IMG/VR virus record: IMGVR_UViG_3300017971_007885
Coordinates: 36,483 to 100,482 of that record
Source of the DNA: a virus
Strand: one strand, 5' to 3'
Length of the DNA: 64,000 bases
The first letter of the stretch is position 1. Every line of letters starts with the position of its first letter. The notes beneath the pieces were generated by a model. The model worked only from the letters and a program-made list of their open reading frames with translations. It had not been told where the DNA came from and ran no database searches. The position numbers and the translations under genes were made by a program. Below are positions 22,715 through 49,449 of the stretch, piece after piece.

Positions 22715-22728
22715 CACATGAGGTAGCC

Positions 22729-27235: not shown

Positions 27236-27239
27236 AGAT

Positions 27240-30200
27240 ATGCCGTCAAACCCATATTCCGGAATGCCAAAGATGTGCTTGCTGTGCACAACTGCCCCCA
27301 ACGGTAGGCCGATCGATCTTTTGAATGCTCGTGGCATTTGTATCACAAATCCGCCAGGCTGGACGCCGCAAATTACAACGTTGAAAGGTGGTGGGGTCCG
27401 GGTCGGATCGCAAACATTGGATGATGATTGGCTCGTGGCCGGTGCGTATGGAGCGGTAGGGGAAGCTTTTCCGGTCAGAATCAACGCGGCGGATACCGCT
27501 GCAAGGGTACAAGAACTCTTGATGCGATTGCAAGAGGCTGCACAGTATTGGATCGATGGCTGGCAACGTGATGCCGTCTATTTGAAGGTACAGCTAACCG
27601 AAGATCATGGCGTTAAGTACAGCCGGATCAAAACAGGATCATACCGGATCGGCAATTATGCTTTTGGGGACCGGACAGGATTACCAAACAATGTATTGGT
27701 GCTAGAACGTGAACCATACTGGAACGGCGCTCCGCCCAACGAGATGCTTGGACCGTTTGCAAATTGGTGCCCCAACCCTTCATTTGAGTATTGGTCAGAC
27801 GATGGTATTGTGGATGCGTTCCCAACAGGTTGGTATGGTTGGCTGGATAGCGGTTTATTGCCCCCCACTTTAGAACTTCGGAGAGAAGATCAACAGATCG
27901 CCGGACCGGACTATGCTCTAGATATAAATTTCGCCGCCGCTCTTGGTGCCGGGGACTATCGGCTAACCGGTAGAATGAATTGGCCAGGTTCTCCAGAACA
28001 AGCAACGTTGCGCTTTTGGCTGTTCCTGACCTTGACAGCCGCCACACATACATTCAGCGTGCGAGTGATCAATAACAAAACCGGTGCGGCGGTTGCAACG
28101 GCCTCTTTTACATCAGATTATCAAGGCTACTATTATTTGCCGGTAGATGCGCCATTTATTGACGATGGAACATACTCGGTAGAATTGCGGTGGCAATTCG
28201 TCAATTCTTTTGTTCCATCCAGATCGGTGATCGACCACATTTGTTTCACGCCGGGCATATACGATGAAGACAGTTGGCCAAGTGAAAGCTTTTATCTGAC
28301 CTGCTCCAATATATGGAATTGGGAAGATGACGAGATGCACTATGGGCACAAGCGGGGCGTTGGAGAAGATGTCCAGCATCCTATCAACTTCCTTGATGTA
28401 TCCGGTGTACCTGGATCGGCTCCGGCGATCATGGAACTTAACGTCTCGCATCTTGGTGCCAAATATGGCGATGACAAGAACTATCCGATTATCAATTACG
28501 TGATGGGATCTCAGGTCCACGAAGCCGGGAAACGATCTAAAGATGAGTACCACATTTCGATGAATGGCGATGGGCCAGGATACACAGGCACAACAGAAAA
28601 GAATTTTTCTTCAGAGAGTTACATCAATGCTAGGCTGACAACAACATATAGTGCGATCTATTGTTGGCGTGCCGATGCGTTGGCGGAAACGTCTTTGTAT
28701 ACGGGCCGTTTCAAGGTTTTTGGCAGAATGCGATGGGTACCCACGGCGGAAGGAGTGTCAACGACATTACAGCTAGAACACTGGATCGGTAGCCAGGTGG
28801 GCCTTTTACAACAAGATGAAGTAATACTTGAGCCATCCGATCAATACAGAATGGTCAATCTTACACCCCGCTCTGTCGTTGACTGGAGTATTCAAGCCGA
28901 TACGCCGGCCGCTCTCGGGCTACGCCTTAACGGGAAAACAGAAGAAGAGGCTGGCAATATCGTGGTTGATTTTCTTCTGTTTGTTCCAACAGATGCAGGT
29001 ATGACAACGATCACGTTTGACGAAAATACGCCATGGTTGGTCGGTCAAGCTATTTCGATAGACGGTAACCCCAACCATCAACCAATTTCTGTTACATCCC
29101 CGTTTTTCCCTTGGGTTCGAGAATCAAGCATGTTGCTTGTAGCCGAAGGGCTAGATAGTTGGCTATGCACAGATGCTGAAGCTTTCACTGGTTCACTTTA
29201 TGTATCTACATACAATGTGGACGTGACCTATGATTATCAAATTTGGATCCCGATCAAGTGGCGTAGCACATTCGCCGCAACCAAGTACCCCGTTGACATT
29301 GTAAACAACGGGTGGGACACGGCCACGCTCATCGGTGCGGCTAAGATGTTAGCCAGCGGGAATGATTTGCGTGTCTTTGACAACGGGGTAGAAATAGATC
29401 GTTGGCTCCAGGATATAAATACTGCAACAACTCAGGTTTGGGCAAATCTGGACTTTGATCCCAAGGGGGAAGCGGCTCTTGCTACAGCCATAGCGGCCGG
29501 CGGGTTCGTGTCAACGATAACGGTCAGCAACCCAACCACTGATTTTCCGAACTCGGGGATCCTGCTTATTGACTCTGAAGCATTTGAATACACATCAAAA
29601 AATGATACCACAATGACCTTTGGTGGTGTCACTAGAGCGATCCGGGGCACAACTTCAGCATTGCACAATGTTGGAGCCGCCGTCTGGTGGATACAACATG
29701 ATTTGTGGATCAAGTATGGCAATGCCGCCGCCGCTGCTCCAACTGTAGACGACGATTATAAACCGGCCTTTCGCCTTGACTCAACAAATGTATCATGGGA
29801 TTACGACGACTTCGGCGAAGATGACGAATTGCGTGCCGCTCAATGGTTCTATGAAGCTCCGCTTCCAGGATACACGTACCCGTGCACCAAGTATACGGCC
29901 AACCATGGCGGTACAGCCGATCCTTGGCAGGAAATGGGGATAACATGGGATGCCGATGCCACTGCATCCGGACGATGGTGGCTCTACAACCCATGTGGTA
30001 TCTCTTCAGTGAATTATCAAAACGGAGAACACTATAGAACGTTGGCGATCCCAACGGAACAACTCACATCTAGCATGACAGGGGTTGAGCCGTGGACTCT
30101 AGAATACACCATTCCAACCCCCGGTGCCGGTGCTTGGGTAGCATGGAGCCGAAACGAAACCATGACGGCAAACACCAAGTATGTAGGTATAGAAGTTTAT

Positions 30201-36513: not shown

Positions 36514-36541
36514 GAGGCGATCTTTTAGATCGTCTTTTTTT
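36514..36541 (+). terminator. Intrinsic terminator of the structural/lysis operon
   Basis: GGCGATC (36516-36522) pairs with GATCGTC (36528-36534), including one G-U pair, around a 5-base loop, followed by seven T. It closes the late region directly before a new promoter. Confidence 0.88.
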
Positions 36542-36565: not shown

Positions 36566-36594
36566 TTGACAGGTCGTGTCATCTGTGATAGAAT
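36566..36594 (+). promoter_or_regulatory. Sigma-70-like promoter TTGACA-17-TAGAAT
   Basis: A perfect -35 (36566-36571), a 17 bp spacer and TAGAAT (36589-36594), 17 bases before the ATG of the RHH gene, with AGGAG between. It sits between a terminator and the RHH/FtsK operon, so this operon is expressed independently of the late genes, probably by host polymerase. Confidence 0.85.
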
Positions 36595-36610
36595 GGTTAC
36601 AGGAGAAAAC

Positions 36611-36949
36611 ATGCCAGGAAAACAGGTCAGAATTGACGCAAATTTGCTTGCCAAGCTTCAGTGTGAAGCGGATCGTCACAACCTAACTATCAGTAAGTAT
36701 ATCGAACAACTAATCAAAGAATCGCAAGCATACAAAAGCCTTTTGATTGACGTGGGTTTTGACTTGCGGCCAGATCAAGGCCGCTTGGTGGGCCTATCAA
36801 TGGAAGCGTGGGCACGATTGAACAGCTTTCGAGCAGATTACATCAAAGCGCAACCCACATGTACAGGAGATATTAGCAGTGTAGTGTTGCATCTACTAGA
36901 AGGGGCCGATCATGAATCAGATCGGAGCGTGGCTAAATGCCCTGTATAG
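36611..36949 (+). CDS. Ribbon-helix-helix (CopG/Arc-like) DNA-binding protein
   Basis: 112 residues, AGGAG before ATG 36611. Residues 4-38 fit a ribbon-helix-helix: strand KQVRIDANL, helix AKLQCEADRHN and helix TISKYIEQLIKES. The C-terminal 70 residues are an extra helical region (LSMEAWARLNSFRADYI). Such proteins bind short operator repeats as dimers and can act as repressors or as accessory factors for DNA transfer and partition. It is co-transcribed with, and overlaps, an FtsK-like translocase, and might bind the genomic ATTATCAA repeats; that is inference. Confidence 0.75.
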   Translation: MPGKQVRIDANLLAKLQCEADRHNLTISKYIEQLIKESQAYKSLLIDVGFDLRPDQGRLVGLSMEAWARLNSFRADYIKAQPTCTGDISSVVLHLLEGADHESDRSVAKCPV

Positions 36950-38204
36950 GGTATTGACGCTAGAGAAGGGTATCTTTTTCAATCTCGTAGGACGACAGCG
37001 GGGACTTCGGACCTACCTCATGCAGATTCACCTACCAAACACGGCAGATTTGCCCAAGGTGCTCAAGGCGCATGAATCTTTGGCCATGGCCATGGGTGTG
37101 GAGCATGTCCGGGTAGCTAGAAACAAGGCGCTTGTTGACATAGATGTGCCGCTTCCAGAGGATTCATGGCGCTCTGTGAAATTGAGCCAGATATTATCAA
37201 GCCAGGCGGAGCGGCTAACTCTTGGACACGATAGCGGCGGCCAGGTGGCCACGATAAGCCTACAGTCACCACTTTGCGCCAACGTTCTTTTTGCCGGAAT
37301 GCCAGGCAGTGGCAAGACTTTTTCAATGATTAGCCTGGTGTTCCAATGTGCCGTGATGTACGATCCACAGGATCTTCAGATCATCTTGATCGATCTGAAG
37401 AACGACAGGGCATGGAAACCGCTTCATATGTTGCCCCACTTGGCACATCCGCCCGTGAAGACTGAGCAGGAAGCCCGCCAGGTTCTGGAGTGGGTCCGGG
37501 ATCAACGGCTGGAGCGGATCCACTACAATGGCCAAAAACAGTTTCCACGGCTCCTTGTGGTGATCGATGAGATAGCTTCCTTGATCATGCGTGCCGGAAA
37601 GGAAGGTGCCCTTGCCAAGTTGATCGGTGAAAGCACCGGACAGGGCCGGGCACTGGGGATCAATCTATTTTTGGGCACTCAACAGCCCAACCAGAAAACC
37701 ATGGGAGCCTTCACTAATGCAGATATGCACGTGCGGATCGTGGGCCGGGTAACCAGTGCGGACTATGCCGCTCACGCTACAGGCCGCCCCCAAACTGGAG
37801 CGGAACACCTTTGTGGTAAAGGGGATATGTTGGCCTTCTTTGGAAACGAAATTCGGCATATCACAACACTGTACTTGGATCGGGACTCTCTGAAGCAATT
37901 GCCCAAGAAGATCGAACCCGAACCGCTTTTGCTTCCAGCTTTTACGGCAGATGCGCCGGAGCCAGGTGGCCGGGATACGGCAAAGATTTACAGCCCAGAA
38001 GTGATCAAAAAGACGGCATTGGCACTTTACTGGTTTTTTAAGTGGGGCAAACGGCCAACGGCCAATTCCCTACAATCAGAGTGCAAAGGTTCCATGACCA
38101 ATAGCCGGATCGCCAGAAATACGGCGCTTGACATTATCAAGCAATGGCCGGAGCCGGCTGAAGTCTTTGTGCGGAATCTTATGCAGGAAGGTAAAGCAAC
38201 ATGA
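36912..38204 (+). CDS. FtsK/SpoIIIE-like DNA translocase
   Basis: 430 residues. Walker A GMPGSGKT at residues 129-136 and Walker B LLVVIDEIA with D219/E220 are intact. GRALGINLFLGTQQPN and the LYLDRDSL region match FtsK/SpoIIIE/TraB-type motors. Residues about 360-425 form a helical tail (KTALALYWFFKWGKRPTANS, then NSRIARNTALDIIKQW) comparable in size and pattern to the winged-helix gamma domain that reads polar 8 bp guide motifs. No transmembrane N-terminus is present. It pumps double-stranded DNA using ATP. Overlap with the RHH gene and a following membrane gene suggest one machine. Confidence 0.85.
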   Translation: MNQIGAWLNALYRVLTLEKGIFFNLVGRQRGLRTYLMQIHLPNTADLPKVLKAHESLAMAMGVEHVRVARNKALVDIDVPLPEDSWRSVKLSQILSSQAERLTLGHDSGGQVATISLQSPLCANVLFAGMPGSGKTFSMISLVFQCAVMYDPQDLQIILIDLKNDRAWKPLHMLPHLAHPPVKTEQEARQVLEWVRDQRLERIHYNGQKQFPRLLVVIDEIASLIMRAGKEGALAKLIGESTGQGRALGINLFLGTQQPNQKTMGAFTNADMHVRIVGRVTSADYAAHATGRPQTGAEHLCGKGDMLAFFGNEIRHITTLYLDRDSLKQLPKKIEPEPLLLPAFTADAPEPGGRDTAKIYSPEVIKKTALALYWFFKWGKRPTANSLQSECKGSMTNSRIARNTALDIIKQWPEPAEVFVRNLMQEGKAT

Positions 38205-38647
38205 AGAAATTGCGCTTTTTTGGCATTGTCCTATCACTTGCCTTGATCGGTGGATGCGTGGCGCTTGGGGGAGTTGTCGGCTTCGAGATCGTGAATAATC
38301 CCGAGATGCGCATGCTCTTGAAAGTGTTCGCTTACTTGGTGGTGGCTTTGGCCTTGATCGGGGCCGTGTGTGTGTTCCTCATGGGCGTGATCTTGGTCAT
38401 CGGCAAGGGCTTGGGGTTGAGCCAGGGGGATACAAAAGCGGCGCTCCAGGCGGCGATCGCCTTGGCCAGAAGTTCAAACACGATCAACAAGCTTTATGGA
38501 CGGCTCCCCCGTGGACTCTTGCCGCCAGGTCAAGCCCCGCCCAATTATTATCAATGGCCAGTGAGCACCATGGGTGATGGCCCGATCGATGGCCATGCCA
38601 CTCATGCCAACACAGAACGGGCCAATGCTGAAGCTTGGGAGCGGTAA
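38201..38647 (+). CDS. Membrane protein with two transmembrane helices
   Basis: 148 residues starting at an ATGA overlap with the translocase gene. Two hydrophobic helices lie at about residues 6-28 (FFGIVLSLALIGGCVALGGV) and 42-70 (VFAYLVVALALIGAVCVFLM). A soluble C-terminal tail is proline-rich. It has no holin hallmark and is best read as a membrane partner or anchor for the FtsK-like motor, since the motor itself has no membrane segment. That role is inferred from gene order. Confidence 0.65.
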   Translation: MKKLRFFGIVLSLALIGGCVALGGVVGFEIVNNPEMRMLLKVFAYLVVALALIGAVCVFLMGVILVIGKGLGLSQGDTKAALQAAIALARSSNTINKLYGRLPRGLLPPGQAPPNYYQWPVSTMGDGPIDGHATHANTERANAEAWER

Positions 38648-38649
38648 CC

Positions 38650-38859
38650 ATGGATGTTTGGGTAGGCCATGCAGGAAAGAAACAATGGACCATCCAAAGC
38701 CTGGAAGATCCGCCCCAAGTACCCGAATTATGGCAAAAGGTCACGATCCGTTTTTACCTTGACCACAAAGAGAAGCCTATACCGGGTTATGTGAGCCGGA
38801 TCATTGACCATGAATGGTTTGTGGTCCGGGCCGGGAAACGACAAAGGCCCACCCTTTGA
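38650..38859 (+). CDS. Small beta-rich protein ending the translocase operon
   Basis: 69 residues, GGAGCGG eight bases before the ATG. The sequence VTIRFYLDHKEKPIPGYVSRII then EWFVVRAGKRQRP looks like a small beta barrel. No family is recognised. Its last codons form one arm of the bidirectional terminator. Confidence 0.55.
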   Translation: MDVWVGHAGKKQWTIQSLEDPPQVPELWQKVTIRFYLDHKEKPIPGYVSRIIDHEWFVVRAGKRQRPTL

Positions 38860-38873
38860 CAGGTGGGCCTTTT
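38843..38873. terminator. Bidirectional intrinsic terminator between convergent operons
   Basis: AAAGGCCCACC (38843-38853) pairs with GGTGGGCCTTT (38862-38872) around an 8-base loop. A T-run follows on the plus side and A-residues on the other, so it can stop transcription from both the translocase operon and the minus-strand LPD29 gene. Confidence 0.85.
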
Positions 38874-38894
38874 GGCTGAAATGATGAGGTATTA

Positions 38895-40283
38895 TCAATC
38901 CGCCGTCAATAGCACTTGCCCGTGCCAAACCATGTTAGGCTCTTCCTCACTCGACAGATGCCCGATCCCATCCTGGAGCAGATCCCACGCATTTTCCAAC
39001 TCTTCCATTGCATTGGTCAAAGCTTGACTTCTGTGCTTTTCCGGGATGCATTCCAGGGCCGCCAGAGCCGCCTTGATCGCCCCTTGATCGTCTTCCAGTT
39101 GAGCCAGGGCCGGACATTTGTTTGTGCTCCGGCGCAAGTGATCCACAACGTGCATCGTAATGACTTCCCGCCCCACAGGCAGATCGATACTTGTGGCTTC
39201 TGCTCTTACGTAGCAATCCACTGTAACAGATGCCCAGTCATGACCACGGGTTTTTAGATGCACCCGGTCCGACCTAAAAGAGCCATCCCGGTATCCATCA
39301 AAATCGGCTTCCAGCTTTTTCAATAGCGCCAGGCGCTTGATCCCTCTACGCTTGGTTGTTTCATACACGATCACGCATTTGGGATATTGCTCCAGGTACT
39401 GGGGCAAAAAGCGGCGCTTTATATCCTTGAGCACCTTGGCCGGTGGACGCCCGAGAGTAAAACCCATGGTAGGGATATCACGATCGTTGGGCGTGAAGGA
39501 ATAGCCGCCCCGGTGGAATTCATCAATCAGATGAGGCCAATTTCCGGACACTTTGGCCTTCGGATCATTGTTGTTGATCCAAAGGTGGATGCCATAACCG
39601 TCCGTGTGCATAATATCGCAGGATCGCCACTTGGGATTCCCTTCATAGCTCCAATCACTGCCCATCAAGTGCGCAATGTGTTGGCCGGTCCAGTGCACGG
39701 CTTGGATATTATCACTCGGGCACGGGCCAAGATCCAATTCTTTGGGCTCTGGATCGACCGGGGCGGCTTCCGCCGCCTCTTGTTTTTCTGGGTACTCTGT
39801 CATAGCTTCCAGCACTTCAGTGAACCAACGGTGTAAAGGCTCTCGGGAACTCAGATCCAGAACAAAAGAGTAATCACCATCATAGCCCTGGATGGCCGGA
39901 GCGTCCCAACCATACTTCTTTTTTCCAGCTATGGCCGCCGCCTCAATTAGGGCTTTTGAATGCTTCCGGATTAGAGAAGGCCGTGATCCAAAGCATACTT
40001 CTTCCGCACCTTCAGGCACTGGGATTTCTTTTTGCGCAAAAACCACCGAACCATCCGCCAGAATCCAAGAATGCGCATACTCGGTACGCTCATATTGGCC
40101 ATCATAGTGTTTTCCCTCAAAGGGTGCCAATAGTTTCTTGACTTGGGCCTTGCTTGGACCATCCGCCCAGACAATCCGCACCCCGCTTTTGCTTATCACT
40201 GAAAACTTGGTGCCGGGATAATTGGCCTTCAAAAGCTTCCGGACCATCTTTGCTGTCTCAACTGTCGAAATGTGCCTTGCCAT
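38895..40283 (-). CDS. LPD29-like domain protein
   Basis: 462 residues; AATGGAG lies 10 bases before the ATG at 40283. The N-terminus, AKMVRKLLKANYPGTKFSVI then SGVRIVWADGPSKAQVKKLL, matches the LPD29 (large polyvalent-protein-associated) domain known from phage and conjugative-element polyvalent proteins. The middle is negatively charged, and the rest (WRSCDIMHTDGYGIHLWINN, PHLIDEFHRGGYSFTPNDRD) is unrecognised. Transcription starts at promoter copy A (40344-40399). LPD domains are thought to act on invading DNA entry or defence, with no defined activity. Confidence 0.7.
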   Translation of the reverse strand: MARHISTVETAKMVRKLLKANYPGTKFSVISKSGVRIVWADGPSKAQVKKLLAPFEGKHYDGQYERTEYAHSWILADGSVVFAQKEIPVPEGAEEVCFGSRPSLIRKHSKALIEAAAIAGKKKYGWDAPAIQGYDGDYSFVLDLSSREPLHRWFTEVLEAMTEYPEKQEAAEAAPVDPEPKELDLGPCPSDNIQAVHWTGQHIAHLMGSDWSYEGNPKWRSCDIMHTDGYGIHLWINNNDPKAKVSGNWPHLIDEFHRGGYSFTPNDRDIPTMGFTLGRPPAKVLKDIKRRFLPQYLEQYPKCVIVYETTKRRGIKRLALLKKLEADFDGYRDGSFRSDRVHLKTRGHDWASVTVDCYVRAEATSIDLPVGREVITMHVVDHLRRSTNKCPALAQLEDDQGAIKAALAALECIPEKHRSQALTNAMEELENAWDLLQDGIGHLSSEEEPNMVWHGQVLLTAD

Positions 40284-40343
40284 CGTGCTTTACTCCATTC
40301 TATACTTGGGCCGCCCCGTTGGCCGCCCCTCAACTTCACGCTC

Positions 40344-40399
40344 ATTGTACCATGAGAAAGAAGCCAGATCCTGACGTGAATCTGACTTCTACCCTGACA
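40344..40399 (-). promoter_or_regulatory. TGTCAG-repeat promoter, copy A
   Basis: On the minus strand, extended -10 TGGTACAAT (hexamer at 40344-40349) is preceded by three repeats of the TGTCAG type; plus-strand starts are at 40371, 40382 and 40394, with 11 and 12 bp pitch. The first two are degenerate (GTCAG core). It reads into the LPD29 gene. Confidence 0.75.
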
Positions 40400-40834
40400 C
40401 TAGTCCCAGTCCAGATGTACCGGATCGGACCACTGACCATCTACCTGCTCATGCCACGTGGTATTTTCAATGGTTGGCTCTTTGCTCGTGTCCATCCAAC
40501 CCCGCTTCACCGTGGCTTCTTGATGAAACGTGGCTTCTGCCAACACCATCGGAGCCAGCACCCGGACCACGCTTATGGTCACTTCTTTGGTGCTCAAGGC
40601 TTCCGCCACATCGGCAAACACCGCTTCCAGGTCACACATTATCATTCCCTCTTTCTGACTATCTGGGAGCCGCCGCCACTGGGTGGATTGACGCCCACCG
40701 ATGCGATCGGCTACTTCTCCATCAATTTCTTCGATCTCGTACTCTTCTCGATCCTTCAGGACCGGCACGCTTGGATCATCACTCAGAGCAAAAAACACTC
40801 TTGGATCGTCCCTCAAAACTGCGATCTTTAACAC
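40400..40834 (-). CDS. Unknown acidic protein behind a structured leader
   Basis: 144 residues from a GTG at 40834. The first half is acidic (LKDREEYEIEEIDGEVADRI), and the second half contains MCDLEAVFADVAEALSTKEV. An internal AGAGGGA plus ATG at about 40642 could produce a shorter second product. It is the only gene read from promoter copy B, behind a 180-base leader with strong pairing potential. No family is recognised. Confidence 0.55.
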   Translation of the reverse strand: MLKIAVLRDDPRVFFALSDDPSVPVLKDREEYEIEEIDGEVADRIGGRQSTQWRRLPDSQKEGMIMCDLEAVFADVAEALSTKEVTISVVRVLAPMVLAEATFHQEATVKRGWMDTSKEPTIENTTWHEQVDGQWSDPVHLDWD

Positions 40835-40849
40835 TTTACTTACTTTCTA

Positions 40850-41017
40850 GCCCAGAACTGGGCAAACATTGTATTTGTGCAAACTTGGAGCCAATTTGTT
40901 CCGCTTGTCGCTTTTGGCTTGTCCCTAGCTATGACACTTTGGGCCGGACGTTATCCGTTTTGCAAGTCACGCTGTCAGTTGCGCGTGTGGCTCCAAGTTT
41001 GCGTTTCGTTTTCCTTC
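40850..41017 (-). ncRNA. Structured 5' leader or small RNA downstream of promoter copy B
   Basis: Between promoter copy B and the GTG at 40834 the transcript has a perfect 15 bp inverted repeat, 40879-40893 with 40988-41002 (core AAACTTGGAGCCA), closing a 94-base loop that includes a CCGGA-TCCGG type hairpin. A second hairpin, GCCCA-gaac-TGGGC (40850-40863), lies next to the start codon. No frame of note is found inside. A riboregulatory leader or a stable RNA both fit; no known class is recognised. Confidence 0.55.
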
Positions 41018-41023
41018 AACTCC

Positions 41024-41067
41024 AGTATACCAGATCTGAAGACTAGTTTCCTGACATGAAGCTGACA
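41024..41067 (-). promoter_or_regulatory. TGTCAG-repeat promoter, copy B
   Basis: Minus-strand TGGTATACT (-10 hexamer at 41024-41029) with two perfect TGTCAG repeats 11 bp apart (plus-strand starts 41051 and 41062). It drives the structured leader and the 40400-40834 gene. Confidence 0.85.
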
Positions 41068-41070
41068 GTT

Positions 41071-41517
41071 TCAGAATTCTTGGATAGTATTGCAGTATGG
41101 ACACCGGCCTACAACCCGGTAACTGGTAGAGCCAGGGCCGTCCGGCTCTTCTTTTTCAAAGGCGCTCATGATCATCGCGTGGCCGCAAAGGGAGCAGGTC
41201 ACCGGCACGGCATCCAGGTGGGACCGGAATTGTGCCCGAGTGTAACCGGCTTCCTGGAAGCAAAGAGCCACGATCGCCCGTTTCTCGAACCCCGGATCGG
41301 CATAGTAGATTATATGGTCGGCTACAGTGGCCGGGTCAGCGGCCAGGCGATCCACTTCGCATTCCACCATGTGCCGGGCACCAAAAAAGCCGGTCATCCA
41401 GGAGCTAAATTGATCGCTCTGGGTCCAGGGGCAATATGGCACGCCACCTTCCGCTGTCGCTGTGTTGTTGCTTTTCAGGCCGTGCTTGAATCCCTCAAAG
41501 ATTGCGCTTGGGTACAT
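41071..41517 (-). CDS. Zinc-ribbon protein of unknown function
   Basis: 148 residues; ATG at 41517 with GGAG nine bases upstream (a GTG at 41526 is too close to it). The C-terminus has CSLCGHAMI...GRCPYCNTI, a four-cysteine zinc ribbon. The earlier part (WTQSDQFSSWMTGFFGARHM) recalls small phage proteins that carry a Zn ribbon for nucleic-acid binding. Last gene of the unit that starts at promoter copy C. Confidence 0.6.
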   Translation of the reverse strand: MYPSAIFEGFKHGLKSNNTATAEGGVPYCPWTQSDQFSSWMTGFFGARHMVECEVDRLAADPATVADHIIYYADPGFEKRAIVALCFQEAGYTRAQFRSHLDAVPVTCSLCGHAMIMSAFEKEEPDGPGSTSYRVVGRCPYCNTIQEF

Positions 41518-41971
41518 AGTCTTCACGCTCCATTCCGGTCATACAGGCCACAAAGGTACCATGTTCATCCAAAGTTGTGTACAGATCGCCGTATACCTGG
41601 ACGTTGATCGTTGGCCAACCGGTCACATTATCATTGCCCCATGGCTTATGATCGGCATGGTAGTAAAACAGATCCCCATCATATTGAGACACAACCGGCA
41701 CATACCATCCCGGACCACGCCAGTGCACAAAAGCTGTACTCCCTTGGTGTTCCTGGAGCAGAGTGGCCAGGGTTTGATCTTGCTCTTTTTGGCACTCGGA
41801 GCAGTAGCCGCCCCCAGTCAAAGGCTTGTCACATCCGGCGCAATGGCTCTTCAGCCACTGGATCGCTTCTTGATCCGGCAAAATGTCTTCCCGAGTAGCA
41901 CACGATACACAAACACATTCCCCTTCTATCGTACGCTCAATTGGTCGTAAGCAGTACCGGCACCTATACAT
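41495..41971 (-). CDS. Double zinc-ribbon protein
   Basis: 158 residues; the ATG at 41971 overlaps a TTGATAAT box (minus-strand view of the genomic motif). Cysteine pairs CRYC, CVSC, CAGC and CSEC in the first 65 residues form two zinc ribbons. The C-terminal half (AFVHWRGPGWYVPVVSQYDG, TINVQVYGDLYTT) is a beta-rich domain. Unknown function, probably nucleic-acid- or protein-binding. Confidence 0.6.
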   Translation of the reverse strand: MYRCRYCLRPIERTIEGECVCVSCATREDILPDQEAIQWLKSHCAGCDKPLTGGGYCSECQKEQDQTLATLLQEHQGSTAFVHWRGPGWYVPVVSQYDGDLFYYHADHKPWGNDNVTGWPTINVQVYGDLYTTLDEHGTFVACMTGMEREDYVPKRNL

Positions 41972-41973
41972 TA

Positions 41974-42168
41974 TCAATCATCCTTCTGGTTGATCTCATC
42001 CAAGATCCTTTGAACGTCTTGTGATGTTGTCCCCGTTGCCTTCCAACCGCTTGGGGTTTGGTTTACACCGTTGCTTACAACTTCATCATTCATGCTCACT
42101 AAGCCTTTCAGCACAGCGGCAATGATCGCAATTGCAAAAAGTCCACCACCAATAATAACACCACCCAT
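41974..42168 (-). CDS. Small single-pass membrane protein
   Basis: 64 residues from the ATG at 42168, with AAAGGAAG upstream. It has a hydrophobic N-terminal helix (GGVIIGGGLFAIAIIAAVLKGL) and a polar C-terminus (TTSQDVQRILDEINQKDD). This is typical of small phage membrane proteins such as superinfection-exclusion factors, but that is only an analogy. Confidence 0.6.
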   Translation of the reverse strand: MGGVIIGGGLFAIAIIAAVLKGLVSMNDEVVSNGVNQTPSGWKATGTTSQDVQRILDEINQKDD

Positions 42169-42170
42169 GA

Positions 42171-42686
42171 TTACACTTCCTTTCTTCGTCTTTGTCTGAC
42201 CATCACGGCCAGGAACTGGTAACAACTCCCATAACAATGCAATCCCCTAAGATCCACATCCGCTTCCGGATTCTCTGAAACGATCTTGGCCAGGGCGCAA
42301 GCTTTGCAGTGCGCACCGGTTACTTGCTTTTGTTTGCCGTCTTCACGCTCTACAATGAAGCCGCTCCCGATGTCGATCGCGTACCACTTCAAGAGTGCCG
42401 GCTTCATTGCCACAGTATCATTCATGAGCCCTTCGTCAATCGCTTTATTGATTGCGGCTCGTTGGCACAATTGGCATAATTCCCCATTCGCCCAAGGATC
42501 TTCATGTGACAAATTCACATCCACTGGAAAGTGCTTCCCAAAAAGACCACAAAAAGAAGTCCCTTGCTCCCAAAGATGATACTTGGTGCCATAGTGTGGG
42601 AATCCCCATCTTTTGCCAAGAGCATGCGCCGCTTCTCTTGCTCTTTGTGGCGTGATCTGGTTTCCTGTACAATCTCTCATTGCCAT
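42171..42686 (-). CDS. Cysteine-rich protein of unknown function
   Basis: 171 residues; AAAGGCGG four bases before the ATG. Cysteines are grouped as ELCQLCQRA, HCKACALA and LHCYGSCY, suggesting two metal sites. The centre has FIVEREDGKQKQVTGAHC. The ATTATCAA copy at 42711 lies upstream of the ribosome binding site rather than on the start. No family is recognised. Confidence 0.55.
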   Translation of the reverse strand: MAMRDCTGNQITPQRAREAAHALGKRWGFPHYGTKYHLWEQGTSFCGLFGKHFPVDVNLSHEDPWANGELCQLCQRAAINKAIDEGLMNDTVAMKPALLKWYAIDIGSGFIVEREDGKQKQVTGAHCKACALAKIVSENPEADVDLRGLHCYGSCYQFLAVMVRQRRRKEV

Positions 42687-42708
42687 AGTACCGCCTTTGA
42701 ATTATCAA

Positions 42709-43044
42709 TCACTTGATCCGCCGTCCCTTCAATTGCGCCGCTAGGTCTTTAGCCGACATGCTAAAGGGTTCAACCCCCACGATGCGAGAGGCCCATGCTA
42801 TGATCTGACCACTCATAAGGTGATAGAACTGTCCCCAACCGTGGGCCAGGTGTTGGCCAAGGAACTCGTGGCCATCTTCCGCCGTTTCAACCCGGCAGAT
42901 CCATCCGCCTTCAGCACCGGCATAGCCGTGGATCTTTGCCCATCGTTTGGCAAGGTATCTTTGGGCTTGGCTTGATGATTTGTGGGGTCGGTTGCCAGTG
43001 TGCACCGTTTTGTGCCCGTATTGCTCCGGTCTAATCCGTGGCAT
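42709..43044 (-). CDS. Small basic protein of unknown function
   Basis: 111 residues; start ATG 43044 within GGATTGATAATG. The N-terminal half is basic (HTGNRPHKSSSQAQRYLAKR), consistent with nucleic-acid binding. Later GGWICRVETAEDGHEFLG and VEPFSMSAKDLAAQLKGR. No motif of an enzyme. Confidence 0.5.
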   Translation of the reverse strand: MPRIRPEQYGHKTVHTGNRPHKSSSQAQRYLAKRWAKIHGYAGAEGGWICRVETAEDGHEFLGQHLAHGWGQFYHLMSGQIIAWASRIVGVEPFSMSAKDLAAQLKGRRIK

Positions 43045-43053
43045 TATCAATCC

Positions 43054-43545
43054 TCACTTTCTTGTGGTCATCCCAAGGGTTTCTTGTGCGTCTGGGTGAG
43101 CACTCATGTTAGCCAGGCACCGCTTGCAAGTTACCCGGTACCCTTTCATCGTGTGGATCCCGCTCTTCCTTCTATGCCCGGTTGTGCACGTTTCCGCCCC
43201 ACAAAGGGTATACATGCTCGTGCGGCATTCTCTTTCAATTACACGAACAACATGGATTGCCTTGCCCCGGCCAACTTGGCCAGGAACCCAAGAATACCTT
43301 GTGATTTTCTCCAAACTCTCCATTTCGTGATCAAAATAGGATTGCCCGCCAGGCACTGACCAATGCCCCCGGAGCCCAAAAACTTGGGTTTGGAACTCTT
43401 CCAGAGCCTGGAGCCGGATCAACGCCCACCGAAGATCCCATGCGCTCACGTTTACATGTTCACTGGAACCCTTGCCGTCTATGGCCTTCTGAAGCCGGGC
43501 CAACATCTGGGGTTGGGGCTTACCATCATATGTCATGTATGCCAT
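43054..43545 (-). CDS. Unknown protein with C-terminal Cys cluster
   Basis: 163 residues from ATG 43545, with AAAGGA nine bases upstream; two further ATG codons precede it. Helical N-terminus (QMLARLQKAIDGKGSSEHVN, DLRWALIRLQALEEF), and a C-terminal CGAETCTTGH...TCKRCLANM cluster that could bind zinc. The ATTATCAT variant overlaps the start. Confidence 0.5.
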   Translation of the reverse strand: MAYMTYDGKPQPQMLARLQKAIDGKGSSEHVNVSAWDLRWALIRLQALEEFQTQVFGLRGHWSVPGGQSYFDHEMESLEKITRYSWVPGQVGRGKAIHVVRVIERECRTSMYTLCGAETCTTGHRRKSGIHTMKGYRVTCKRCLANMSAHPDAQETLGMTTRK

Positions 43546-43550
43546 TATCA

Positions 43551-43817
43551 TCATTCCTTTCTGAGTTTCAGCGAAAGTGTCATGTTGCCATAGCGGAATC
43601 CAAACCATTCCAAAATATCAACTGCTCGAACAGTTAAGCTTTTTCGCCTACCGGCTCTATTAAAAGTGAATTCGAATGTGTCAATTTGTATCCCCCCGCC
43701 ATAGACAGGTTCAATTGATGAAGAGATATAAGCATCACCATTAACGGTGATCTCACCATCGCCAACCACAATAAAGCCCTCTTCTGTCAGTTTTTCAATT
43801 TTCTTTTGTAGATCCAA
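43551..43817 (-). CDS. Small beta-rich protein
   Basis: 88 residues from a TTG start at 43817, with AAAGGA nine bases upstream. After a short helix (LQKKIEKLTEEG) the sequence alternates strands (FIVVGDGEITVNGDAYISSS, IQIDTFEFTFNRAGRRKSLT). Unknown function. Confidence 0.5.
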   Translation of the reverse strand: MDLQKKIEKLTEEGFIVVGDGEITVNGDAYISSSIEPVYGGGIQIDTFEFTFNRAGRRKSLTVRAVDILEWFGFRYGNMTLSLKLRKE

Positions 43818-43832
43818 GATTGCATTCCTTTT

Positions 43833-44114
43833 CTAGAAGGGCAATGCCCCTTCAGGGCACCCATTCAGGTGCTCAAAACCAACTAACTGCCACTTGGACC
43901 AGGCGGACCACTGGGCAACCATCCCCCTCATCGTGTAGGTGCGGGTGCGCTCAAAGTGTACTCGGACCATCTGAGGCACCATGTATTGCCCGCAAGTCAT
44001 GCAGGTGTGTCCCATGGTCGTGGTCCTGGTTTCACTCATTTGTTGCTTGCACTCTTCCGGGCGGGGTTCGTACCAGTCTCGACCATCCGCTGTGTAAAAT
44101 TCACGATCCCACAT
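43833..44114 (-). CDS. Small CxxC protein of unknown function
   Basis: 93 residues; ATG 44114 inside a TTGATAATG box. Contains CMTCGQYMVP, one CxxC pair, and a tryptophan-rich C-terminus (WSAWSKWQLVGFEHLNG). The 5' end overlaps the stop of the upstream gene by 14 bases. No family is recognised. Confidence 0.5.
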   Translation of the reverse strand: MWDREFYTADGRDWYEPRPEECKQQMSETRTTTMGHTCMTCGQYMVPQMVRVHFERTRTYTMRGMVAQWSAWSKWQLVGFEHLNGCPEGALPF

Positions 44115-44322
44115 TATCAACGTTCGTTTCTAGATCGTTTCGATCCAAAAGTATGCCTTTATATGGGCCTTCGGCTACTTCCAAATACTTTTCAGAAGCC
44201 GGGGCACCGGGCCATGCATGAAAAGTCTTCAGATTGAATGTTGTCCCTTTGGGCACAAAAACAGCACTAAGGCCCAAAATGCAAAGTTCGTATTTTGCTA
44301 TACCGGTAAACACTTTGGACAT
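44101..44322 (-). CDS. Small protein of unknown function
   Basis: 73 residues from ATG 44322, preceded by AGAAGGGG. Beta-type sequence (AKYELCILGLSAVFVPKGTT, YKGILLDRNDLETNVDN). Its start carries a degraded version of the genomic box (ATATCAAT). Nothing more can be said. Confidence 0.45.
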   Translation of the reverse strand: MSKVFTGIAKYELCILGLSAVFVPKGTTFNLKTFHAWPGAPASEKYLEVAEGPYKGILLDRNDLETNVDNVGS

Positions 44323-44335
44323 ATCAATACCCCTT

Positions 44336-44551
44336 CTAGCGCCAGTCGCCTTCATAGCTCAACACTGCCCGGCACTTTGAACATTGGTATGATCCAACGC
44401 CAGGCCGGTAGTGTGCTTCAGATCCACACTTGCCGCATGGAAGTATTCCCCTTGATTCAGCATCTTGTGCTTCCAATTCTGCAAGTGCACGCTCTCCTTT
44501 GCTTTCATCCGCGTGTACTTGTCGCCAACGATCTGCATGTATGCTTCCCAT
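44336..44551 (-). CDS. Small zinc-ribbon protein
   Basis: 71 residues; ATG 44551 within a TTGATAATG box, GGAAAGG upstream. CGKCGSEAHY...YQCSKCRAV is a classic four-cysteine ribbon at residues 39-62, preceded by an acidic helix (GERALAELEAQDAESRG). Possibly a nucleic-acid- or polymerase-binding peptide. Confidence 0.6.
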   Translation of the reverse strand: MGSIHADRWRQVHADESKGERALAELEAQDAESRGILPCGKCGSEAHYRPGVGSYQCSKCRAVLSYEGDWR

Positions 44552-44571
44552 TATCAATACCTTTCCGTTGT

Positions 44572-44594
44572 GGGGAGCCCTTGCCGGGCTCCCC
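44572..44594 (-). promoter_or_regulatory. Intergenic hairpin without T-run
   Basis: GGGGAGCCC (44572-44580) pairs with GGGCTCCCC (44586-44594). It lies between the stop of the 44604-45800 gene and the next start. Without a T-run it is more likely an mRNA stabiliser or processing site than a terminator. Confidence 0.6.
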
Positions 44595-44603
44595 TTTGCT
44601 TGA

Positions 44604-45800
44604 CTAGTCTTCTACCGCTTCAAACTTGCACCGGGTCAAAATCGTTTGCTTGGTGCCCCGGTATTCATCGTGAGCCTTGACCGTGGCCTTGCCGCTCACA
44701 ACCGTTTCCCCATCGTACCAGTCAAAAAAGTTTCCAGTCTTCCATACCAATATGTTGCCATCTTTGTCCAGAAACTTGTACAGATAGGTTGCGCCATACA
44801 TCGAATCAAAGCTTGTGGAAAAAACCAAGGTCAAGTTGTCGAATTCTTGACGTTTTTTGATGGTGCCAACCCACTCGGAAGGCTTGGTGTTGGCCTCTTC
44901 CGCCTTGCGCTCTATCTCTTTTTTGTAGGCTATGATGGCAGAAGCGACGATCCCGGATTGCTTGATAGTTATGTATTCATCACTGAAGGAAGTGGCCAGG
45001 TTCCAAAAGTAATCGTTGCGCTCTTCCCGGTTAGCCACGTCTTCACGCACCCACTCAACCACTTTTTTGGCCAACAAGCGATCCGCCCCAATAACTTCCA
45101 GTTTGGCCGGGCTATACTTGCTTGCAAAAAACGAACTTAGAGCGATATCCGCCGTGGCCGGGCCTTGCTCTTCACCCCGGTACACTGCACCCCGGCTTGT
45201 CCATCCGCACAAGCGAACGGCGGCGGCTACGTGGTAAAGGAAACCTTCCAGATTCATGTAGTCGCTTCCGCCACTGTAACCCATCGGATCCCATTCAACT
45301 TCTCGGGCCTCTTCGTAAAGATCAAGGATGTGTTGCGCCCACTTGGCCAATGCTTCCGGGTTGGCGTGACCGGTAAAATCCTTCAAGCAGGTGCTTCCAA
45401 CTTGGACAAATTCCCCTGCTTCACTCGTAACCACGTAGGTGTAATTACGTTCCCGGTTGGTTTTGCAGTGTTCACACCACGGCTCAACCGTGCGAAACTT
45501 GGCCGGAAGGTCTTCTTCCAGAAGCGAGTACATCACGTTCCCGTTAGGCGTGTGCTCCAGCTTGGCCGCCAGTTTCCAACCGTTCAATACTGGGGCTTCA
45601 CCGACCACTTCAACATCAAAGACCTTGACCGGCACTTTAGTGCTATGGCCGCTTTCATCGGTCTTGTGCCAAATTTCAAACCGTTCCGCCAAGATCGTCA
45701 TGGTGATCTCGGGTGTGTCCAACTTGGCCGCCCGCTTGTTTAGTTTGGCGATCTTGCTTGCCAGTTTTGCGTAATTGACTTCTGGGATAATTGCCTTCAC
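44604..45800 (-). CDS. Conserved phage protein with CEHC and VGSTCLKDF motifs
   Basis: 398 residues from GTG 45800, with TGGAG eight bases upstream. The protein has CEHCKTNRERNYTYVV followed by EFVQVGSTCLKDFTGH, a pair of Cys motifs that recur in a widespread but uncharacterised phage family and could bind zinc. The N-terminal region (ILAERFEIWHK, VPVKVFDVEVV) and the C-terminal beta region (TLVFSTSFDSMYGATYLYKF, DEYRGTKQTILTRC) flank a helical centre. First gene after promoter copy C. Function unknown. Confidence 0.7.
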   Translation of the reverse strand: MKAIIPEVNYAKLASKIAKLNKRAAKLDTPEITMTILAERFEIWHKTDESGHSTKVPVKVFDVEVVGEAPVLNGWKLAAKLEHTPNGNVMYSLLEEDLPAKFRTVEPWCEHCKTNRERNYTYVVTSEAGEFVQVGSTCLKDFTGHANPEALAKWAQHILDLYEEAREVEWDPMGYSGGSDYMNLEGFLYHVAAAVRLCGWTSRGAVYRGEEQGPATADIALSSFFASKYSPAKLEVIGADRLLAKKVVEWVREDVANREERNDYFWNLATSFSDEYITIKQSGIVASAIIAYKKEIERKAEEANTKPSEWVGTIKKRQEFDNLTLVFSTSFDSMYGATYLYKFLDKDGNILVWKTGNFFDWYDGETVVSGKATVKAHDEYRGTKQTILTRCKFEAVED

Positions 45801-45851
45801 TTGTTTGCTCCATTCTAAAATCTGGTTTGTTTGCTGTTCAACTTCAGCTAT

Positions 45852-45906
45852 AGTATACCAGATCCTGGAATAGTTTCCTGACATGAAGCTGACATTTTTC
45901 CCGACA
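45852..45906 (-). promoter_or_regulatory. TGTCAG-repeat promoter, copy C
   Basis: Minus-strand TGGTATACT (-10 hexamer at 45852-45857). Perfect TGTCAG repeats at plus-strand 45878 and 45889 (11 bp pitch) and a third, imperfect one at 45901 (12 bp). It starts the long unit of small genes down to 41071. Confidence 0.85.
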
Positions 45907-45910
45907 ATGC

Positions 45911-45936
45911 ACAAAAGGGAGCCGGTTGGCTCCCTT
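45911..45936 (-). terminator. Intrinsic terminator on the minus strand
   Basis: AAGGGAGCC (45915-45923) pairs with GGCTCCCTT (45928-45936) around a 4-base loop; in the minus direction the stem is followed by TTTTG. It ends the unit coming from promoter copy D just before promoter copy C. Confidence 0.75.
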
Positions 45937-45954
45937 CCATATTATCAATGCTCC

Positions 45955-46398
45955 CTAGTTTGGAAGCCTCATGGCCTCTTGGTGCAGGTCTGAAAGCATC
46001 CGCTTCAAGATGTACAACTCGGAATGTGAAAGGCACTCGTGGGCCGCTATCATAAGCGTGGACCTGAGAATACGAATTTGATCCAAGAATTCGCCCAAGT
46101 TGGCCAATTCGTAAACCCGGCACTTGCCACTTGCTTCATCTCGGAAGCCGATAAAACCACCGTGATCGCTGCATTCGCCGTCCATGTCGGCAAACTGCAA
46201 GAACGTGCGATCCGATACCTTGATCGCGTATTTGCCTGTGTAAGCAAAGCGGATCACACTGGGGCATACCACGTCACTAACTGACAACTCGGAAGACTCA
46301 AGCTTGGTCATCGGAGCCCGCCCCACGTTCGTGGGCTTGCCAAGCGAATCGGTGACATATACGCCAAGGATATCCCTGCTCATGTAGAACTCTAACAT
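45955..46398 (-). CDS. Unknown protein, last gene of the copy D unit
   Basis: 147 residues; ATG 46398 within GGATTGATAATG. A beta-rich N-terminus (DILGVYVTDSLGKPTNVGRA, FAYTGKYAIKVSDRTFLQF) and a helical C-terminus (LILRSTLMIAAHECLSHSEL-like region, LKRMLSDLHQEAMRL). No recognised family. Confidence 0.55.
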   Translation of the reverse strand: MLEFYMSRDILGVYVTDSLGKPTNVGRAPMTKLESSELSVSDVVCPSVIRFAYTGKYAIKVSDRTFLQFADMDGECSDHGGFIGFRDEASGKCRVYELANLGEFLDQIRILRSTLMIAAHECLSHSELYILKRMLSDLHQEAMRLPN

Positions 46399-46400
46399 TA

Positions 46401-46781
46401 TCAATCCTTCCCTTTTATGTGGGGTTGCGCCCCAACCGCAACCAATAAACTCATGGCCTTGATCACTTGCTCATGGGCCGTTTGAACGTTTTGTGGGCCG
46501 CCAGTCGCTTGATACAACAGATCATAGGCTTGCTGAAGAGCCACTTGGCGCAATTCCCGGATCATGTTGGCCGGATCGTTCCCTATGCCATGGGCATACT
46601 CCAATTCATGACCACAGATCCACATGGCCAGGGCGTGAAGGGCATCCAACTGCTCTTCATCCAGATCGAACAGATCGGCCAGGGCCGCCCGATTGCCCAG
46701 ATCGTGGGCCGGGTGGATCTTGATGATGCTATCAAAGATAGCACGGCACATCAAGATATCCGTTTCATTCATTTTGGCCAT
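46401..46781 (-). CDS. Helical protein of unknown function
   Basis: 126 residues; ATG 46781 within GGATTGATAATG. Almost all helical (ETDILMCRAIFDSIIKIHPA, LDALHALAMWICGHELEYAH, QAYDLLYQATGGPQN). No motif found. Its stop lies three bases before the next start. Confidence 0.5.
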   Translation of the reverse strand: MAKMNETDILMCRAIFDSIIKIHPAHDLGNRAALADLFDLDEEQLDALHALAMWICGHELEYAHGIGNDPANMIRELRQVALQQAYDLLYQATGGPQNVQTAHEQVIKAMSLLVAVGAQPHIKGKD

Positions 46782-46783
46782 TA

Positions 46784-47089
46784 TCAATCCCTCTTTTTCT
46801 CGGGCAAGTGCCCATAGGTGTGATCCCATACCAACTTTGGGACCATGATTCCGTAAACTTGGCCGTTTTCCGTTCGCCAAAGGGTGTACTCGTGCACCGG
46901 CTTGGCCAACTTGGCATAGGAGCCGCCGATCTTTTGGTGGGCGTGCGTTCTGATTTTGTGCTCTTTGTGCTCCCACGTATGGCGCTCCAAGAATTCGCCC
47001 AAGGTCATGATCCCGCAATAGTAATGTGACACTTGGGCAAGAGCTTTTTGGAGCCGTCCGGCATCTCGGGCGGATATCGCTTTGATCAT
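46784..47089 (-). CDS. Small protein of unknown function
   Basis: 101 residues from ATG 47089, GGATGGG six bases upstream, overlapping the preceding gene by ATGA. Contains LGEFLERHTWEHKEHKIRTH, His-rich, and a beta segment VHEYTLWRTENGQVYGIMVP. No family is recognised. Confidence 0.5.
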   Translation of the reverse strand: MIKAISARDAGRLQKALAQVSHYYCGIMTLGEFLERHTWEHKEHKIRTHAHQKIGGSYAKLAKPVHEYTLWRTENGQVYGIMVPKLVWDHTYGHLPEKKRD

Positions 47090-47493
47090 TTTCCCATCCT
47101 TTTCAGTTTGGCCAGGCACCGGGTGCAGGTCACCGGTTGATCTGGACTTGGCCGCCATTCTGACCAACCCGCCGATCTCGGACCTGGAGCCGAACCACAA
47201 ACGGGCTTCCACTGGGGATAATACCCTTCTCGGGTGTTATTCTTTTTCAACAGCCGGGCGTGGAACAAAGTACCACCGTCCCGTTCCGCACCGTTTGCGC
47301 ACCGTCCGGCTTTGGCGCTCACAGTGTAGCCACGATCAAGATCCACTTGGCACCGGGCACAAAGGCCGTTTTCGTTTAGATCCGCCCCGTAAGTGCGGCA
47401 CATGGAACACGGTGGGCGCTCTGGAGCCGGATCCCGCTTGGGCATATCCGGGCAATCATCTAACATCTTCTTGAACTGCTCCGCAAAAGTCAT
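47086..47493 (-). CDS. Zinc-ribbon-containing protein
   Basis: 135 residues from ATG 47493. Cysteines CSMCRTYGADLNENGLCARC form one ribbon (about residues 29-48), and CTRCLAKLKRMGK at the C-terminus gives another CxxC. Probably a small metal-stabilised binding protein. Translationally coupled to both neighbours. Confidence 0.55.
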   Translation of the reverse strand: MTFAEQFKKMLDDCPDMPKRDPAPERPPCSMCRTYGADLNENGLCARCQVDLDRGYTVSAKAGRCANGAERDGGTLFHARLLKKNNTREGYYPQWKPVCGSAPGPRSAGWSEWRPSPDQPVTCTRCLAKLKRMGK

Positions 47494-47494
47494 C

Positions 47495-47803
47495 TTATAC
47501 GCTCTGGTTTGCAATCCGCAAGCACTGTTGATAGGCCGCCGCCGGGCCGCTTACCCATCGCACATGGTACCACTTGCCGTTTACCGTGCTCTGGACCTCT
47601 TCCGCCATGCCCATTCCCTTGTGAAACCGGGTGCGCATCCGTGGGCCAACTCTCGGGTGCTCTTGACCACATTTTGCGCAAGTGTCGATTGTGGTGCTTG
47701 CCACATCGGTGGGCTGGAGCCGGACATTGTTCCGATCGTATTCTGTACATCCGCACCGGGTGCATACTTTCTTGGGTAAAGTAATCATTCGGGTGTCTTT
47801 CAC
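47495..47803 (-). CDS. Small zinc-ribbon protein, first gene after promoter copy D
   Basis: 102 residues from GTG 47803, AGGAG eight bases upstream. CTRCGCTEYD...TCAKCGQEHP is a zinc ribbon at about residues 13-47, followed by a beta segment (EEVQSTVNGKWYHVRWVSGP). Function unknown. Confidence 0.55.
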   Translation of the reverse strand: MKDTRMITLPKKVCTRCGCTEYDRNNVRLQPTDVASTTIDTCAKCGQEHPRVGPRMRTRFHKGMGMAEEVQSTVNGKWYHVRWVSGPAAAYQQCLRIANQSV

Positions 47804-47833
47804 TTGACTGCTCCTGTCTGGATTTGGTTTGGT

Positions 47834-47855
47834 GGGGCGGCCATTTGGCCGCCCC
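47834..47855 (-). promoter_or_regulatory. Hairpin at the 5' end of the copy D transcript
   Basis: GGGGCGGCC (47834-47842) pairs with GGCCGCCCC (47847-47855) around ATTT. It starts about 8 bases after the expected transcription start, so it may protect the mRNA 5' end. Confidence 0.55.
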
Positions 47856-47869
47856 TCAACTTCAATATC

Positions 47870-47925
47870 ATTGTACCATGAATAGAAACCCCGATCCTGA
47901 CATGAAGCTGACATTTTTTCTGACA
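47870..47925 (-). promoter_or_regulatory. TGTCAG-repeat promoter, copy D
   Basis: Minus-strand TGGTACAAT (-10 hexamer at 47870-47875) with three perfect TGTCAG repeats, plus-strand starts at 47897, 47908 and 47920 (11 and 12 bp pitch). It ends one base short of the stop codon of the 47927 gene. Confidence 0.85.
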
Positions 47926-47926
47926 C

Positions 47927-48745
47927 TCAGAGCCTGGAGAAGGCCCATGTCAATTCGTAGCTGTAAAGCTTGTCTTCCGGCAAGGGCTCTTCCGTGACGA
48001 TCCACGTATGGGGCACTGAATCCGATCTTTTTTGGTGCTCCAAGATGCAAGCTTGATCTAGGCTTGCCCACGTCAAAGAAAACGGACGGCTGAAGGAGCC
48101 ATACACGTGCCTAAAATCACCAGCTTGGGCTTCTGGGTGCTTATACTCGAATTCCAACGGTGAAAGCAGGTGCCGGCCGTTTTGGCGCAATTGCGCAACG
48201 TGATCCAGGCCGCAAAGCTTGAAGAGTCGCATAATCCGATCGAATTCATTGGCCGCAAAAGCACCTTTGCCCTTCCACTCGTGGGCACTGGAGCAGTCCA
48301 GGATCATGTAGCTGTAGGTGTCTTTATCAAAAGCCAATAGCAAGGCATCGTTCACTTCCCACCCACGGCGGTTTACTTCCATAACATCTTGCTCAACCTG
48401 GAGCACAAAACGCTTATCCAGATGCATGTATTGCCTTGCATCCAACACGATCATCTTGGGCCGGACCAACCAACGGCGGCCATTGGCCTCTTCCACTCGC
48501 CAATTCTTGGGGAAACTTGGCAGATCGGCCATTGCTTCCAAAAACTCGGCTTCCCGAGTGGGGCAAACAAAGTCAGCATTCATGTATGGGCGGCCATCCA
48601 AAGGTTTCCAGATCTCCCCTTGCCATTCCCACACGCCCCCGGTATGCACGCCATCCGGAAGGCCATCCACGCGCACCGATGCTTCCAGCTTGACAGCATC
48701 TTGGTGGGGTTGGATATCTCTCGTTGAAAGTGGTAACTCGGACAT
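47927..48745 (-). CDS. Unknown conserved phage protein
   Basis: 272 residues; ATG 48745 within GGATTGATAATG. Conserved-looking stretches are GVWEWQGEIWKPLDGRPYMN, RRWLVRPKMIVL, EVNRRGWEVNDALLLAFDKD and YMILDCSSAHEWKGKG. The order (glycine-poor N-lobe, then acidic/DCS motif) faintly recalls degenerate kinase-like phage proteins, but no catalytic loop can be pointed out. I leave it unassigned. Confidence 0.6.
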   Translation of the reverse strand: MSELPLSTRDIQPHQDAVKLEASVRVDGLPDGVHTGGVWEWQGEIWKPLDGRPYMNADFVCPTREAEFLEAMADLPSFPKNWRVEEANGRRWLVRPKMIVLDARQYMHLDKRFVLQVEQDVMEVNRRGWEVNDALLLAFDKDTYSYMILDCSSAHEWKGKGAFAANEFDRIMRLFKLCGLDHVAQLRQNGRHLLSPLEFEYKHPEAQAGDFRHVYGSFSRPFSLTWASLDQACILEHQKRSDSVPHTWIVTEEPLPEDKLYSYELTWAFSRL

Positions 48746-48759
48746 TATCAATCCTTCTA

Positions 48760-48781
48760 GGGGCGGCACTCGGGCCGCCCC
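48760..48781 (-). promoter_or_regulatory. Intergenic hairpin without T-run
   Basis: GGGGCGGC (48760-48767) pairs with GCCGCCCC (48774-48781), between the 48796 and 47927 genes. Same architecture as the other GC hairpins of this block, with a different sequence. Confidence 0.55.
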
Positions 48782-48795
48782 GGTTACAGTGTGGG

Positions 48796-49401: not shown

Positions 49402-49417
49402 TGCTCTATCCCATCTA

Positions 49418-49438
49418 GGGGGCGGCTTGGCCGCCCCC
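49418..49438 (-). promoter_or_regulatory. Intergenic hairpin without T-run
   Basis: GGGGGCGG (49418-49425) pairs with CCGCCCCC (49431-49438), between the 49450 and 48796 genes. Confidence 0.55.
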
Positions 49439-49449
49439 GAGTACCCAAT

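Follow-up and report, generated by a model that had tools for sequence, protein, structure and literature searches.

The window analysed here, 64,000 nucleotides, comprises bases 36,483-100,482 of the 100,482-bp virus record IMGVR_UViG_3300017971_007885, which is itself a fragment with both end genes cut; the remaining 36.5 kb were read as two further pieces, L002 and L003. Positions are those of the window unless otherwise stated. The window carries a four-gene operon on the + strand. It is preceded by a hairpin with a T-run at about 36516-36541, the intrinsic terminator of the upstream gene (-13.6 kcal/mol), and by a sigma-70-type extended promoter at 36566-36594 (TTGACA-N17-TAGAAT, with TG before the second hexamer; 11 of 12 matches to the consensus). 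The operon is closed by an 11-pair bidirectional hairpin at about 38843-38873, which is shared with the convergent gene 38895-40283 and folds on both strands (z -3.7 and -4.8). Both terminators fold better than shuffled sequences, with z of about -3.7.

The first gene (36611-36949) encodes a small ribbon-helix-helix (RHH)-like protein of 112 aa; an open reading frame of 128 aa is also present, but it starts inside the promoter, and the real start is the ATG at 36611. Its RHH assignment is weak (RHH/CopG/MatP_C Pfam matches with E of 0.06-0.1, the RHH matches at E of 0.06-0.08 having scores below the Pfam cut-offs) and the protein is therefore referred to as RHH-like only. The second gene (36912-38204) encodes a protein of 430 aa with Walker A (GMPGSGKT) and Walker B (LLVVIDE) motifs and without a membrane segment of its own. 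It is an FtsK/SpoIIIE-family ATPase by profile (PF01580, E=5.5e-19, above the cut-off), by sequence match to FtsK in the PDB (3e-19) and by predicted fold: the AlphaFold model (pLDDT 83.9) matched the alpha-beta motor of FtsK (6t8o) in a Foldseek search with E of 2e-24 and TM of 0.65-0.70 over 369 columns. The third gene (38201-38647) encodes a small membrane protein of 148 aa with two hydrophobic helices, a possible membrane anchor for the motor, and the fourth (38650-38859) a protein of 69 aa without an assigned function.

The C-terminal piece of the motor (residues 361-428; 37992-38195) is a possible helix-turn-helix. It was predicted to form four helices with no strands and no wing, although the model of the isolated domain is of low confidence (pLDDT 69). 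Searches with it returned no significant PDB match and no hit to FtsK gamma; weak, non-significant structural matches included helix-turn-helix proteins.

Five further contigs were found to be relatives of this phage. Four are pieces of one sister species, nearly identical to each other where they overlap and about 86% identical to the window's phage over the aligned bases, and one is a more distant piece of 5.4 kb. In the sister species the motor, membrane protein, fourth gene and convergent neighbour are conserved at 90, 86, 86 and 74% identity, respectively, and the C-terminal piece is as conserved as the motor (89%). They again lie behind a terminator (an equivalent hairpin at the same place, z -5.6) and a sigma-70-like promoter (TTGCAA-N17-TATAAT). 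In contrast, tblastn found no match to the RHH-like protein; a different protein of 72 aa sits at its place and shares only the 17-residue tail that overlaps the start of the motor gene. The RHH-like protein is therefore an exchangeable part, most simply an autoregulator.

A one-strand octamer with quasi-periodic spacing

The genome is also marked by a polar octamer. ATTATCAA occurs 61 times on the + strand and never on the - strand of the window, against 2.5 expected, and 93 times against 0 in the whole record. Counts with one mismatch allowed define the class WTTWTCAW, which occurs 172 times on + and once on -, where 22 and 15 are expected from a second-order Markov model; the reverse orientation is depleted with P=3.5e-6. 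Six of these sites, all on the + strand, lie in and just after the operon (36975-38898), at 36975, 37193, 37319, 38133, 38547 and 38891. An origin of the octamer in codon usage or gene starts was rejected, since the sites occupy all three frames of + genes and keep the + orientation in the block of minus-strand genes at 38895-49818 (record 75377-86300), where GC skew flips with the genes. In this block the sites lie mostly at gene boundaries, often squeezed between ribosome-binding site and start codon (AAGGATTGATAATG), and about a dozen sites do overlap gene starts. An IHF-type site (WATCAANNNNTTR) was likewise rejected, because its TTR half is not conserved in the flanks. In the sister species 47 of 54 aligned sites are identical, compared with 38% of all 8-mers and 22 of 53 words of the same composition (P=8e-7). 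The octamer is confined to one strand in all relatives.

The gaps between the sites are far from random. None is below 120 bp (32 expected; the closest sites are 126 bp apart), 95 fall at 280-540 bp (38 expected), 5 at 540-700 bp (16 expected) and 24 at 700-870 bp (13 expected). Pair distances give a period near 405 bp, with a score of 0.22 against a maximum of 0.147 in 300 random placements. A second mode lies near 790 bp and sums of neighbouring short gaps cluster at 740-870 bp. The near-void at 550-700 bp followed by a mode at 700-850 bp (4 against 24) is incompatible with a monotone gap density (P=9e-5), albeit with bins chosen after seeing the data, and is not explained by simple even-coverage selection. 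The pattern appears in each third of the genome and in the relatives, whose sites are, however, largely inherited and thus not independent. ATTATCAA and the variant sites share one lattice. We looked for helical phasing of the gaps and found none, a search for a second word phased with the lattice gave nothing convincing, and when a spacing-aware EM model was used to fill the ~790-bp gaps with degenerate sites the second mode remained. An octamer-poor stretch extends over positions 20826-27299 of the record (about 826-7299 of L003) and includes a segment near 22.9-24.8 kb of the record where no gene was called, a possible origin or regulatory region.

Other words are also strictly confined to one strand of the whole record in all frames, namely GGGTC (77:0), GCCAGG (163:0) and GGAGG (18, against 0 for CCTCC), whereas the palindromes CCCGGG, GGCGCC, GGGCCC and CCGCGG are absent (30-45 expected). 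This suggests evasion of several restriction systems, some of them type III-like. GCCAGG and GGGTC are, however, Poisson-spaced.

The gene content of the record provides some further context. L002 contains a ParM/Alp-like actin partition gene (4285-5292) followed by a gene for a 135-aa protein without an assigned family, possibly ParR-like (5289-5696). No primase, replicative helicase, polymerase, nickase, relaxase or secretion-system gene was identified among the proteins scanned, which did not cover every gene of this fragment. A protein of 297 aa (56134-57027) belongs to phrog_6247 'DNA topoisomerase' (1.6e-99); TOPRIM-like motifs (EKDAL, DHDPSG) and LRQLYYQ, recognized by eye, suggest a TopoVI-A/Spo11-like enzyme, although no Pfam or PDB sequence match was obtained. 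A PAPS-reductase-like gene and two radical-SAM-type genes, one weakly like 'radical SAM mobile pair protein A', are present at L003:8406-9449, L003:4773-5738 and L002:2760-3515 and might be involved in DNA or nucleotide modification. A NADAR domain protein (57280-57723), a DnaJ-domain protein (60573-61634), an ARPP-1 domain protein (61649-62548) and a response-regulator C-terminal (Trans_reg_C) protein (54068-54760) were also found. About eight genes in L002, L003 and the window (e.g., 208-1245 and 15498-16517) encode proteins sharing the N-terminal leader WFxGW...KGSxTSGNWGHKGxxGxRGGS, several of them in a tandem array with genes for ~86 aa.

FtsK-like motors in other viral loci

In order to find out whether motor and octamer occur together elsewhere, we performed a profile-guided scan that returned 79 other viral loci with FtsK-like motors, many of 430-475 aa. 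As judged by hydropathy, 10 of the 13 closest have a small 2-TM protein within 900 bp downstream, and ParM-like genes lie within the fetched ~10 kb of four of those 13. These are raw frequencies without a background rate, and the 2-TM proteins show no clear homology to the one described here. None of the 79 loci, nor the FtsK-encoding phages Moonbeam, SIOphi and WXIN, carries a word of similar polarity and spread that is also frame-independent and spaced. The strongest candidates (GGCGCTGG, AGGAGATC, AAGGGATC and others) are mostly frame-biased codon usage or extended ribosome-binding sites, and none is lattice-like. Each of those loci is only about 5-21 kb long (28-41 kb for the named phages), so that weaker signals could be missed.

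The octamer itself was found only in this phage and its close relatives, and every one of these genomes that covers the locus also has the motor; a relative with the octamer but without the motor, which had been named beforehand as refuting a link, is thus not among the genomes found. A scan of viral contigs for two GATTATCAA sites about 350-380 bp apart returned at least 119 loci, none of those retrieved being strongly polar. Distant terminase or ParM relatives (Microcystis phage Mvi-JY20, Myxococcus Mx1, Moorella MTATph1 and Alicyclobacillus KKP_3916) contain no comparable word. No relatives of the motor were found in GTDB genomes with its peptide patterns, and literature searches for an evenly spaced one-strand phage motif found nothing.

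Interpretation and comparison with known systems

The first-pass annotation described an RHH protein, an FtsK-like motor and a membrane protein in one operon with its own promoter and terminators on both sides, in a genome with a polar octamer, and these observations are confirmed, with the RHH gene start corrected and a fourth gene added. Its description of the C-terminal domain as helical and like FtsK gamma is only half right, as the piece is helical but no likeness to gamma could be shown. Its interpretation is partly supported: the data support an insulated operon for an FtsK-class dsDNA translocase with a membrane partner in a phage with a strictly polar octamer, but give no support for the proposal that the motor or the RHH protein reads the octamer, the comparative evidence being against a general link. 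Motors of this family, several in the same motor plus 2-TM layout and some with ParM nearby, occur without such a word; the RHH body is replaced in the sister species while the octamers are kept, which argues against their being read by the RHH protein; and KOPS-type steering does not predict a ~400-bp lattice.

We consider it most likely, with a probability of roughly 0.5, that there are two separate systems. In this view, the operon makes an FtsK-family ring motor, plausibly anchored by the two-helix membrane protein, under a small and interchangeable RHH-type regulator. Together with the ParM-like actin gene it would most likely represent a plasmid-style kit that moves or segregates the phage genome, for example an extrachromosomal prophage across a division site; the arrangement resembles plasmid maintenance genes and this role is the most economical one. 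The octamer would be a strand-locked lattice, with one WTTWTCAW site per ~405 bp or a multiple of it, most likely read by an enzyme that acts on one strand at spaced sites, in lagging-strand priming or site-specific nicking, with the ~400-bp spacing as the working length. Such a process would fit the polarity, the avoidance of the reverse orientation and the spacing, although there is no direct evidence for nicks or priming. The family and predicted fold of the motor, the layout of the operon and the polarity, conservation and spacing of the octamer were established by our analysis, whereas ATP-driven translocation of dsDNA by a hexamer, membrane anchoring, the segregation role, strand interruptions at the octamer, the identity of its reader and its independence from the motor are inferred.

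Whichever protein reads it, it is about as likely as not that the octamer belongs to a genome-wide, strand-specific, length-measuring system (discontinuous-strand priming, programmed nicking or unit-length DNA organisation), of which we found no description in tailed phages. While the operon is a further example of a phage-borne FtsK motor with a separate membrane partner, the same layout as in other mobile elements, the lattice is the more surprising part, as a conserved, strand-locked octamer with a measured ~400-bp spacing over 100 kb points to a process with a fixed working length acting on one strand. If it marks priming or nicking, it would bear on the long-open question of what site-specific strand interruptions in viral DNA are for, and it provides exact sites to test.

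Among the alternatives, KOPS/TRS-like steering, in which the C-terminal domain of the motor loads on the octamer and pumps DNA in one direction along the genome for segregation, transfer or packaging, is unlikely but not excluded. The presence of an FtsK-class motor and a strictly polar octamer in one genome, the selection against the reverse orientation, as expected for steering sites, the conservation of the C-terminal piece and its weak helix-turn-helix matches speak for it. However, apart from the absence of a gamma-like fold in the low-confidence model and of polar words beside other motors of the family, FtsK loads once and then ignores further KOPS, which are sparse, about one per 13 kb (PMC5357621). 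It is more doubtful that the octamer positions a DNA-organising protein that wraps or loops about 400 bp per unit in a packaging or nucleoid lattice. Missing sites do keep register and no sites are closer than 126 bp, but the gaps lack helical phasing, strict one-strand orientation is not needed for most DNA-organising proteins and no candidate protein was identified. A conjugation-type coupling protein (TcpA/TraB-like) for cell-to-cell transfer of the phage or prophage DNA also appears improbable: TcpA is the next best fold match after FtsK and also a sequence match, the membrane partner is separate and similar motors occur on plasmids, but FtsK itself is the closer match, no relaxase or secretion-system gene was identified among the proteins scanned and the motor has no membrane segment. 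Finally, a by-product of evading restriction systems that need two head-to-head sites, as for the 36 EcoP15 sites of T7 (PMC3874151), can be largely dismissed, since avoidance, which would leave the forward orientation near expectation as for GGGTC/GACCC, neither raises one orientation to about 8 times expectation (172 against 22) nor spaces it.

Of the known systems, the motors of Pseudomonas aeruginosa and E. coli FtsK (6t8o, 2iut and 2ius) share with the phage protein the alpha-beta motor fold over about 370 alignment columns and the Walker motifs, but the phage protein has no N-terminal membrane domain or linker and its C-terminal piece shows no likeness to gamma in the low-confidence model. 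TcpA of the Clostridium plasmid pCW3 (6o1x) is likewise a single small FtsK-class ATPase of a mobile element, although with a weaker fold match (rmsd about 8), and no conjugation genes were seen here. Bacillus phage Moonbeam combines an FtsK/SpoIIIE gene with a ParM-like gene, but its motor gene is longer (27.9% identity) and it has no polar octamer. Confinement of a motif to one strand is shared with site-specific strand-interruption systems (tf/T5, betapleolipoviruses). In Pseudomonas putida phage tf a short motif marks 14 nicks in 46 kb, on the top strand only and at positions similar in related phages (PMC3517423); these sites are few and not known to be periodic, and nicks were shown there but not here. 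Betapleolipoviruses (HRPV-3, HHPV4) carry interruptions at GCCCA, with 35 motifs in 15 kb (PMC5867852), i.e., one per few hundred bp. We tested HRPV-3 (NC_017088) and found its GCCCA sites to lie in strand-pure blocks (runs test, P=5e-5), which roughly follow gene orientation; these are small archaeal viruses with a different motif and with strand switches inside the genome. KOPS (GGGNAGGG) of E. coli FtsK are polar 8-mers with one orientation strongly preferred, but they are sparse and converge on dif (PMC5357621), whereas the octamer described here lies on one strand throughout, about once per ~0.6 kb, and is quasi-periodic.
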